NCBI GenBank assembly: GCA_002898315.1 | Contig: BEHV01000007.1 | Span: 1-64,000, forward strand | Origin: a bacterium HR19 | GTDB taxonomy: Bacteria; Calescibacteriota; Calescibacteriia; Calescibacteriales; Calescibacteriaceae | Length of the DNA: 64,000 nucleotides | Direction of reading: 5' to 3' | Shown: positions 38,819 through 44,564 of the stretch, piece after piece | How the letters are laid out: each line of letters begins with the position of its first letter | Position numbering within the stretch: the first letter of the stretch is position 1 | The notes under the pieces: model-generated | Seen by the model: only the letters and a program-made list of their open reading frames with translations | Databases searched by the model: none | Told to the model about the DNA's origin: nothing | Program-made: the position numbers and the translations under genes

Positions 38819-39913
38819 TTACTCTCTCTTTTTACCCACAAAATTGCTTATAACTCTATAAGATAGCACAGATTCAAAAAGTATTGTGATTATTGATGTG
38901 TAAAGCAACCAAGCCGTAACTTGGTGTGTTGCTCCAAGAAGAACGGGGACTTCTCCCTTTGATTTCAAAAGGGTTATTATTCCGAGGACAAACTGAAAAA
39001 TCCATATAATAAGAGGTAGAACTTTTCTCTCAATTGCGAGAAAAATAAAAGGTATGAGCAGTACGAATGAAAAATGCCTGTGTACGAAATTCACAAAAAA
39101 TGGGTTTTCTAAAATAAATCCTTCAAACAAATTGGGAGGTATGAGTTTTCCGTTTATATCAGGATATGTTGGTGCAAAAACTGCTCCTTTTGTTCCCGCA
39201 AGGAGCGTCCCAAAGAAAAACTGAACAAAAAATAGAAAAATTGAAATGAGAGAAAGCTTTTTTAATTTTGAGATTTTCCGAGATAAATCTTCCAGATTTT
39301 GAAGCTCAAAATCTCTGGCAACTTCTTTTTCTTTCGCTCTCGCAATATATATGCCAAGTATCACAAACGAATACACTATTAGGGCAAAGGTGTGGTGTCC
39401 CGCAAGTGCAAGAGGTGATACGAAAACTCTCTCTCCTTCTACGCCTGTTTTTACCATCAGCCACCCGATTACTCCTTGTAAAAAGAAAAGAAACGAAAGG
39501 AGAAGAACATATTTTATCATAAAACCGCTTATCTTCTTTTTTACCGCAAAGATTATCGCAGGTATTATGAGCGAAAGTCCAACTATCCTTCCCCATAATC
39601 TATGTATATACTCTATGAGATATATTTTTTTGAAGTCATCAATGCTCATCCAGTTATGTAAAACCCTATACTGCGCTATCTTTTTGTACTTTTCAAACTC
39701 TCTCTCCCAATCTTTTTCTGATATAGGAGGGATTATGCCTGTTATTGGCTTCCACTCAACGATTGAAAGTCCAGCTCTTGAAAGCCGCGTTATCCCGCCG
39801 ATACCAACCATTATTATTATCATCACCGCAACTATTTCAAACCATAACTTTACCAAACCAGCTTCTCCCATTGCTGATTTTTTCTCCATACTCCCTTCAA
39901 ATTTTATCCTCAT
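38819..39913 (-). CDS. ctaA: Heme A synthase (CtaA/Cox15)
   Basis: Oxidises heme O to heme A for aa3-type cytochrome oxidases in the inner membrane. 364 residues with eight predicted membrane spans. The four heme-ligand histidines sit in EYIHRLWGRIVG, AGHHTFALIVYSF, VHRHFSFVLLIP and GATHQVTAWLLY. GGITRLSRAGLSIVEWKPITG and WEREFEKYKKIAQYR match the Cox15-like, alphaproteobacterial/mitochondrial type of CtaA rather than the Bacillus type. It implies an aerobic or microaerobic respiratory chain with heme A, although no oxidase genes or ctaB are nearby. The start could be the ATG here or at residue 9. Confidence 0.92.
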   Translation of the reverse strand: MRIKFEGSMEKKSAMGEAGLVKLWFEIVAVMIIIMVGIGGITRLSRAGLSIVEWKPITGIIPPISEKDWEREFEKYKKIAQYRVLHNWMSIDDFKKIYLIEYIHRLWGRIVGLSLIIPAIIFAVKKKISGFMIKYVLLLSFLFFLQGVIGWLMVKTGVEGERVFVSPLALAGHHTFALIVYSFVILGIYIARAKEKEVARDFELQNLEDLSRKISKLKKLSLISIFLFFVQFFFGTLLAGTKGAVFAPTYPDINGKLIPPNLFEGFILENPFFVNFVHRHFSFVLLIPFIFLAIERKVLPLIIWIFQFVLGIITLLKSKGEVPVLLGATHQVTAWLLYTSIITILFESVLSYRVISNFVGKKRE

Positions 39914-42603: not shown

Positions 42604-44550
42604 TTATAAGATTTTTGATGCTGTCTGGTAGTTGAAGTCGCGTATTTTTAACCTTATCTCAGCTGCTTCAAGAATATCTTTGAGCATATCTACATAGGTT
42701 TTACCTGATACATAGTACATTTTTGCGAGGTGTCCATCCCAGCACCAGCCGGGGTTGGGATTCACTTCAAGGAGGTATGGGTTCCCATCATCATCAAGTC
42801 GCCAATCAAATCTTGCGTAATCTCTGCATTCCAATCTCTCAAAAAGCTTTATACAGCACTCCACTATGAATTTTTCAACTTCCTCGGGAATTTCGGCTTT
42901 GACCGACTTTATGTTCCAGTATGGGGAATCGGGGAGCCATTTTGCTTCATACCCGCATATCCTCGGAAGTTCTGGCGGAAGGCAAGAATAATCTTCTTCA
43001 ATTATCGGCAAGACCTTGTAGTTTTCAGGAGGGTTCCCAATTATACCAACCGATAGATCTTTTCCTGCGAGGAATTTTTCAACCAGGATGGGTTTGTCGT
43101 ATCCGAACTTTTCTCTTATTTCGCTTATAGCGTTTACGAGGTCCTCAGCGTTGAACACGACACTTTTTTGGGTTATCCCAAAGCTTGAATCGCCGAAATT
43201 TGGTTTGACTATTGCCGGGAAAGAGAAGGGAAGTTCAAAAGTCGTATCTTCTGGTTTTATGAAAACCGCAGGGGGGACGGGAATTCCCATCTCTTTCGCT
43301 ATTCCGCGAACGAGGGACTTATCGTAGCAGTGTGCAAGGCATTGCGGTCCAGCTCCTGTATAAGGTATTCCCAGAATCTCAAGCAGAGCGGGAATGTGAA
43401 GCTCTTTTCTCGGGTCGTTGAAAAATCCCTCATCGCATAAGTTAAACACATAATCTATTTTCCCCTTCAGCTTTTCAAGGTCTTCTATCAGTGTATTGTG
43501 ATTTGTCAGGTATATGAAGTTATAACCTTTTATCTCTTTCAAAGCTGAGACGAGTTTATTTATGGTGAAAAAGTCATCTTCATCAAAGTATCCGTTTGGC
43601 TTCAATTTATCTGGCTTTTTTGGGTCTCCCATCACTACTGCAATCTGTCTTGTTGAGCTCTTATTCTTGATTCTTATGGTTGTCCAATCTTTTTTAGCGA
43701 CTGCTGATACTATTATTCTCCTTTCCATCATTCCTAAATCCTGATTTCTTTTTGATAGAGGAGATATTTCTTCACAGAACCTTATGTTATCAAACCCAGC
43801 TTTTTCTAAAATATCGTAAAGCTCTTTTGAGCCGTATAATCTCTCTGCGTAAAATTGGTCTGCTATAACTCCTTTTTCAGTATGGGTTACTACTTCTCTT
43901 GTGATGAGCCGTGTTCCGTCTTTTGAAAGAGACCTCTCTCTACATACAAAGTATTTTTTATCTATCCACTCCCACGAGCGTTTCTGAAAGTTATTCTTTA
44001 TATATTCTCCATCTGCAACATCTATCAGAACTCTTCCCCATGGTTTCAGAACTCGGAGAACCTCTTTGAGAACTCTTATATCGTCTTCAATTGTATCAAA
44101 GTATCCGAAGCTGTTGCCAAGAATTAAGACCACATCAAATTCATCTGGTGGATAAGGTAATTTTCTCGCATCTCCTTCTCTGAATTTCACATTCAGCCCT
44201 TCTTTTTTAGCTTGCGCTTTTGCTCTCTGTATGAGATAGTGTGAGCGGTCAAGCCCTTCTACAAACTGAAAACCTCTCCTTGCTAACTCAAGCGAATGCC
44301 TCCCATGACCACAGCATAAATCAAGAATCTTCTCATCCTGCCTGAGTTTCAGAATATCAATAAAAAGGTCTATCTCCATCTTTGTTATTTCCTGATCATC
44401 TACTACATCTCCGTCTGTTTTGAGATATATTGAGTTGAATATCTTACGCCACCAGTCAGGTGGAACATATTCCTCAAGGTTTGAGACAGGACCGAGACAG
44501 CTTATCCTTACCCTACTTAAAGTTTTTCTTTCTGTATGTGTTTTTGCCAT
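42604..44550 (-). CDS. Fusion of a SAM methyltransferase and a D-Ala-D-Ala-ligase-like ATP-grasp enzyme
   Basis: A 648-residue two-domain protein. Residues about 30-285 are a class I methyltransferase with motif I ILDLCCGHGRHSLELA (75-90), EGLDRSHYLI and FDVVLILGNSFGYF. Residues about 303-648 are an ATP-grasp ligase of the Ddl type: AVVMGDPKKPD, IDYVFNLCDEGFF, IPYTGAGPQCLAHCYDKSL, the ATP-binding FPAIVKPNFGDSSFGI (444-459), and the Mg site FDWRLDDDGNPYLLEVNPNP (581-600). Ddl-like enzymes form amide or ester bonds from an acyl phosphate; the joined methyltransferase suggests that substrate or product is also methylated. Substrates unknown. It has one of the strongest Shine-Dalgarno sites here (GGGAGGAGGGG) and a long leader with hairpins. 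Signal peptide and membrane segments are absent. Confidence 0.88.
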   Translation of the reverse strand: MAKTHTERKTLSRVRISCLGPVSNLEEYVPPDWWRKIFNSIYLKTDGDVVDDQEITKMEIDLFIDILKLRQDEKILDLCCGHGRHSLELARRGFQFVEGLDRSHYLIQRAKAQAKKEGLNVKFREGDARKLPYPPDEFDVVLILGNSFGYFDTIEDDIRVLKEVLRVLKPWGRVLIDVADGEYIKNNFQKRSWEWIDKKYFVCRERSLSKDGTRLITREVVTHTEKGVIADQFYAERLYGSKELYDILEKAGFDNIRFCEEISPLSKRNQDLGMMERRIIVSAVAKKDWTTIRIKNKSSTRQIAVVMGDPKKPDKLKPNGYFDEDDFFTINKLVSALKEIKGYNFIYLTNHNTLIEDLEKLKGKIDYVFNLCDEGFFNDPRKELHIPALLEILGIPYTGAGPQCLAHCYDKSLVRGIAKEMGIPVPPAVFIKPEDTTFELPFSFPAIVKPNFGDSSFGITQKSVVFNAEDLVNAISEIREKFGYDKPILVEKFLAGKDLSVGIIGNPPENYKVLPIIEEDYSCLPPELPRICGYEAKWLPDSPYWNIKSVKAEIPEEVEKFIVECCIKLFERLECRDYARFDWRLDDDGNPYLLEVNPNPGWCWDGHLAKMYYVSGKTYVDMLKDILEAAEIRLKIRDFNYQTASKIL

Positions 44551-44553
44551 TTT

Positions 44554-44564
44554 CCCCTCCTCCC
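44554..44564 (-). promoter_or_regulatory. Purine-rich Shine-Dalgarno site of the methyltransferase/ATP-grasp fusion
   Basis: On the minus strand GGGAGGAGGGG ends three bases before the ATG at 44550; its GGAGG core lies at a good distance for initiation. It fixes the start and suggests efficient translation. Confidence 0.7.

Follow-up and report, generated by a model that had tools for sequence, protein, structure and literature searches.

A recurrent fusion of a SAM methyltransferase with a Ddl-type ATP-grasp ligase in bacteria and archaea, a candidate one-gene route to an N-methylated peptide-type metabolite

The window, a stretch of 64,000 nucleotides of contig BEHV01000007.1 of bacterium HR19, was found to contain a gene in which a SAM methyltransferase is joined to an ATP-grasp ligase resembling D-Ala-D-Ala ligase (Ddl). 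The encoded protein is read as a bifunctional enzyme and, with about an even chance (0.5), as a single gene that suffices for making a small N-methylated peptide or pseudopeptide; this reading is supported by the presence of the full-length fusion across phyla and by invariant catalytic and pocket residues in both halves. The wider statement, that this one gene would encode a whole pathway to an N-methylated metabolite or cofactor of peptide type not described so far, and that transfer would have spread it to Asgard archaea, Aigarchaeota, methanogens and numerous bacterial phyla, carriers mostly of anoxic and hot habitats, is put forward tentatively, at somewhat less than even odds.

Both domains belong to known superfamilies, and the conserved fusion as one family is undescribed within the libraries searched, as no named family for it was found in Pfam, NCBIfam, PADLOC or PHROGs and no such fusion in the PDB. 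A published description was not found in the literature searched, the scope of which excluded most subscription papers and preprints, and the ATP-grasp and methyltransferase passages of a catalogue of archaeal fusions were found to be without it; a paper on archaeal pseudomurein had no bearing on the fusion. The PADLOC match mad2 spanned only the generic methyltransferase core, and a defence system was rejected. The first-pass annotation had proposed an undescribed bifunctional activity; its premise of a widespread and constrained fusion with conserved catalytic residues, lacking both a family model and a paper in the searches made, was borne out, and the activity itself is a prediction from sequence.

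Results

Gene and domain composition

The ATG of the gene was found at position 44550 of the minus strand, followed by 648 codons without an internal stop. The N-terminal half matched Methyltransf_25/31 of Pfam at residues 71-184 (E to 5e-22; 78.9 bits against a cut-off of 27) and contained a class I Rossmann core with motif I DLCCG.G, whereas the C-terminal half matched Dala_Dala_lig_C at residues 418-628 (E 7e-28, above the cut-off). The uninterrupted reading frame and the Pfam matches of both halves agree with the earlier description of one protein joining the two activities, and the motifs given with that description (ILDLCCGHG, VKPNFGDSSFGI and LLEVNPNP) were found to occupy largely invariant or near-invariant columns in 41-84 homologues. 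The AlphaFold2 model, built from a 41-sequence alignment, contained two mostly confident domains and a low-confidence hinge at residues 291-297 (mean pLDDT 83.5, pTM 0.58). In Foldseek, the ligase half matched Ddl structures (E 5e-21) and the methyltransferase half matched 3d2l, a class I methyltransferase. The coordinates of the features are given in Table 1.

Table 1. Features of the fusion gene, with positions counted in the window
Feature	Position	Strand	Evidence
Fusion gene, 648 aa, SAM methyltransferase and ATP-grasp ligase	42604..44550	minus	80 full-length homologues
Shine-Dalgarno GGGAGGAGGGG, core GGAGG 5 or 8 nt from ATG	44554..44564	minus	Present in L002, L003, L031
Class I SAM methyltransferase domain and Cap strands, residues 19-288	43687..44496	minus	Pfam; NmbA 9RI2 alignment; AF2 model
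SAM-binding motif DLCCG, residues 77-81	44308..44322	minus	D77, C80, G81 invariant
Linker after methyltransferase domain, residues 289-300	43651..43686	minus	W289 invariant
Ddl-type ATP-grasp ligase domain, residues 301-633	42652..43650	minus	Pfam, phmmer, Foldseek top matches all Ddl
ATP-grasp motif KPNFGDSSFGIT, residues 449-460	43171..43206	minus	Mostly invariant or near-invariant
Mg/acyl-phosphate and acceptor-site motif NPNPGWCWDGH, residues 597-607	42730..42762	minus	Replaces Ddl NT.PG...S[LM]

The region upstream of the gene was AT-rich. The strong Shine-Dalgarno site claimed there was recovered and was found to be retained in a same-genus relative. The structured 5′ leader claimed with it was not supported, as the fold had a z-score of 0.18 and 106 of 200 dinucleotide shuffles folded as well; with no match in Rfam and no conservation of the leader within the genus, a riboswitch or other structured leader was rejected. 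The gene and alaS run towards each other, and mur genes were not among the neighbours, as had been noted. A CtaA/Cox15 heme A synthase gene at 38819-39913 of the window suggests a terminal oxidase that uses oxygen in the host, though many carriers of the fusion belong to groups known as anaerobes.

The ligase half in comparison with Ddl

The best PDB matches of the ligase half by sequence (phmmer) were Ddl/VanA, and the ATP-grasp fold with its ATP and Mg residues is common to Ddl and the fusion. In the alignment with the host Ddl and 3R23, residues K449, K537, R580, D582, E595 and N597 were kept, and these were invariant or near-invariant among the homologues, which places this half in the Ddl-like ATP-grasp fold. 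Its score remained below the curated Ddl cut-offs, with 130.5 bits against 245.65 for TIGR01205 and 123.8 bits against 243 for NF002378, whereas the separate true Ddl of the host (G000:C4) passed both, with 290.9 bits against the cut-off of 243. PF01820 matched the host Ddl, and neither the fusion protein nor the fusion locus in the host genome search contained a match. The ligase half is not a D-Ala-D-Ala ligase, as judged by these scores and alignments.

The second D-Ala is bound in Ddl through its carboxylate, by a serine and the residue next to it. In the alignment with the host Ddl and 3R23, the fusion was found to have NPNPGWCWDGHLAK where Ddl has its acceptor motif (..PGMTERSLLPK), with WCWDGH at the place of S-[LM], and NPNPGWCWDGH was invariant in 41 aligned homologues, with a single substitution (W602L) among 84. 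Because the carboxylate-binding serine motif is replaced, the acceptor is probably different from D-Ala; the two tryptophans, the aspartate and the histidine of the motif might accommodate an amine that is cationic or larger.

The methyltransferase half in comparison with NmbA

The best PDB match of the methyltransferase half by sequence was 9RI2, the NmbA of Chlorobaculum tepidum (E 6e-27), in which residues 16-264 align with residues 33-282 of the fusion across the entire domain, Cap included, at ~30% identity. NmbA is a free protein that N-methylates the cysteine amine of bacillithiol (PMC12719100), whereas the fusion also carries the ligase domain. The SFGYF motif was found to be common to NmbA, the fusion and other free methyltransferases, whereas the GN before it (GNSFGYF) and the motifs SWEW, RER and QDLGMM were specific to the fusion in the comparison made with NmbA and free relatives. 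The bacillithiol marker BshC (PF10079) was absent from 23 of 26 carrier genomes and present in the other three; it was not found in the host genome (G000, 82% complete). Because of this absence the fusion was rejected as an NmbA, and its substrate would differ from bacillithiol. With Ddl set aside by the curated cut-offs, the fusion thus falls into neither characterised family. Amine N-methylation would be the most economical reading for the methyltransferase half.

Distribution of the fusion

A scan of GTDB contigs returned at least 584 stretches encoding relatives of the fusion, from which 80 loci were kept, all from metagenome-assembled or uncultured genomes. All 80 were found to carry the full-length fusion at 65-97% identity. 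Besides others, the carriers included Atribacterota, Planctomycetota, Aminicenantes, Zixibacteria, Chloroflexota and Thermotogota among the bacteria and Lokiarchaeota, Jordarchaeia, Aigarchaeota, Altiarchaeota and Methanophagales among the archaea. This recurrence across phyla excludes the artificial join of two genes that the first-pass annotation had considered, and the join is natural. No relative was confirmed on viral contigs, and no full-length copy was found on plasmids.

In the whole-genome sample, the fusion was present in 5 of 5 genomes of its own genus and family and in one of 55 other genomes. By phylum, and with contig-end fragments and truncated or broken copies included, matches were found in 26 of 148 genomes for the phylum of a Lokiarchaeon, 31 of 50 for that of an Atribacterium, 4 of 199 for that of a Planctomycete, 28 of 197 for that of a Methanophagales archaeon and 7 of 149 for that of an Aminicenantes bacterium, one of these seven being an unfused homologue. 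The copy number was usually one per genome, with two copies in a single genome from the Asgard sample. The distribution is patchy over bacteria and archaea, and it covers one sixth of the sampled Asgard-phylum genomes, most of the sampled Atribacterota and complete methanogen genomes. For the last, methyl-coenzyme M reductase (Mcr) was found in 15 of the 16 Methanophagales-phylum sample genomes from which fusion loci, intact or truncated, were retrieved, and in most of the Mcr-bearing genomes the gene lies on a 2-4 Mb contig, so that complete methanogen genomes hold the fusion.

Broken, N-terminally truncated or frameshifted copies were observed at L147:5394-6476, L143:5094-6653, L145 and L146, which suggests occasional loss or assembly error. 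L145 and L146 were rejected as ancestral separate genes; the homology crosses the frame change in L145, and both read as frameshifted fusions.

Constraint and transfer

The mean column identity of 41 fusion homologues was 76%. Between the window gene and a 97%-identical relative, dN was 0.014 and dS 0.30 (dN/dS ~0.05), and 101 of the 122 differences were at third positions. Alanyl-tRNA synthetase of the same genomes was 61-68% identical in G001, G003 and G004, where the fusion was 69-80% identical, and 38-47% identical in other bacteria, followed by 28-31% in archaea, where the fusion was ~70% identical. In the fusion tree some phyla were intact (Promethearchaeota formed one clade), others were split and archaea were placed among bacteria, although many deep branches were weakly supported and such a transfer signal can be mimicked by binning errors in metagenome-assembled genomes. 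The fusion identity of ~70% across domains against 28-31% for alanyl-tRNA synthetase, together with the dN/dS of 0.05, indicates probable cross-domain horizontal transfer and strong purifying selection. As the fusion outdoes alanyl-tRNA synthetase in conservation between archaea and bacteria, it must do something valuable.

Gene neighbourhood

No co-directional neighbour was found within 120 bp at 45 of 84 fusion loci, some contigs ending near the gene. Among 101 flanking genes and 126 Pfam families, none was found in more than three members; a conserved gene neighbourhood, which had been suggested as a source of clues, was thus not found in the other genomes examined. An operon reading was rejected, as the co-directional aldo-keto reductase, CorA, Y-family polymerase, radical SAM/OGG and pirin genes were lineage-specific (Atribacterota, methanogens), and no transporter, precursor or degradation gene consistently accompanied the fusion at these loci. 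In four loci of one methanogen group (L133, L134, L135, L143), a radical SAM protein and an OGG_N-domain protein come after the fusion, always in one order. CitMHS/ArsB-type transporters were observed near the fusion in Lokiarchaeota, Altiarchaeota and one methanogen locus (L093:7891-9183, L064:6827-8119, L048:5003-6244, L141:7112-8383). The copies of L048 and L141 were 51% identical, and the Loki ones were ~22-25% identical to these, giving at least two unrelated versions; the link of this transporter type to the fusion is a weak lead.

Proposed function and alternatives

Going by its family, the ATP-grasp half would hold an amino-acid-like substrate by the free amine and phosphorylate its carboxylate with ATP, followed by the attack of an amine acceptor other than D-Ala on the acyl phosphate. 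By likeness to NmbA, the methyltransferase half would then methylate the free amine of the ligated product with SAM. Ddl-type ligases bind the free ammonium of their first substrate. Because of this, and because NmbA acts on a finished molecule, ligation would come before methylation. We infer this order, a small-molecule product and nitrogen as the methyl acceptor, the last from the ~30% identity to NmbA. A single, transferable gene without accessory genes suggests common precursors and a soluble product that serves by itself, for example as a protectant, a redox agent or a solute, and a patchy single-gene spread without partners is as expected of an enzyme for a self-sufficient metabolite. 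Among the product ideas of the first-pass annotation, the N-methylated dipeptide or peptide-like metabolite fits NmbA, whereas a modified murein is unlikely, since Asgard archaea, Aigarchaeota and methanogens carry the fusion, the host possesses a Ddl of its own and the acceptor motif for D-Ala is replaced.

RimK-type ATP-grasps attach amino acids to proteins, and the ligase half might likewise load a protein, RNA or glycan with an amino acid, to be capped by the methyltransferase half. The very slow evolution relative to alanyl-tRNA synthetase, the extensive conserved motifs (SWEW, RER, QDLGMM) and the absence of pathway partners are in favour of such a macromolecule modifier, of which the strong conservation is equally expected. 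It is nevertheless considered unlikely, given that the ligases nearest in sequence and in fold are all Ddl enzymes acting on small amino acids, the nearest methyltransferase works on a small thiol and an enzyme modifying a conserved macromolecule would not usually show patchy cross-domain transfer. A Ddl/Van-like variant of the cell-wall D-Ala-D-X ligases that has gained a methyltransferase domain would account for the Dala_Dala_lig_C and Ddl/VanA matches, but the low TIGR01205 score, the separate host Ddl, the replaced acceptor motif and the presence of the fusion in archaea without murein, Asgard archaea and methanogens among the carriers, largely refute it and leave it very improbable.

Two further readings were considered. 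The N-methylation and ligation of part of a bacillithiol-like low-molecular-weight thiol would agree with the similarity to NmbA, SFGYF included, and with several near-invariant cysteines of the fusion; it is nevertheless quite improbable, as the motif also occurs in other free methyltransferases, BshC is mostly absent from the carriers and these include archaea, which are reported to be without BshA/B/C homologues (PMC12719100). Alternatively, the methyltransferase half might O-methylate a carboxylate that is thereby protected or activated, either ahead of ligation or following it. A precedent is given by the beta-lactone peptides cystargolide and belactosin, in which CysG/BelI and the ATP-grasp CysD/BelU bring both activities into one small-peptide pathway, although as separate clustered proteins with O-methylation of a carboxylate and a need for more enzymes (PMC11427300). 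This reading is rather improbable, since the nearest solved relative is an N-methyltransferase, methyl esters are scarce according to the same source and a recurrent hydrolase partner was not found near the fusion. For the preferred one-gene route to an N-methylated peptide or pseudopeptide, a partnerless gene in complete Mcr-bearing genomes means that the product could be traceable experimentally; if the reading is true, a new N-methylated compound of wide occurrence, whether a metabolite, an osmolyte, a redox agent or a cofactor, would be of broad interest.

Unfused relatives

An unfused ATP-grasp protein of 333 aa was found at L144:5001-6002 (G735, Aminicenantes phylum), with 40.6% identity to residues 302-630 of the fusion. 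It shares NFCDTG..ND, CYDK, SPYW, DYARFDWR and NPNP.W..DG with the fusion, but is without a methyltransferase domain and contains NPNPAWANDG, with WANDGK where the fusion has WCWDGH. It is a possible free sister of the fusion's ligase. A second unfused ligase of this level of similarity was not found among 396 genomes of its phylum, and inspection of looser relatives showed no methyltransferase and ligase lying side by side as unfused genes. The free ATP-grasp ligases found in rhizobia, Aliarcobacter and others, in some genomes as tandem pairs, were ~30% identical over the ligase half and contained GYESKW/NPNP-like features in the aligned examples, but were unfused, with no methyltransferase gene annotated beside two inspected plasmid examples. 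A divergent Amidase gene was found to adjoin the L144 ligase, and tandem pairs of distinct Ddl-like ATP-grasp genes were observed in unrelated bacteria (L007, L008, L024).
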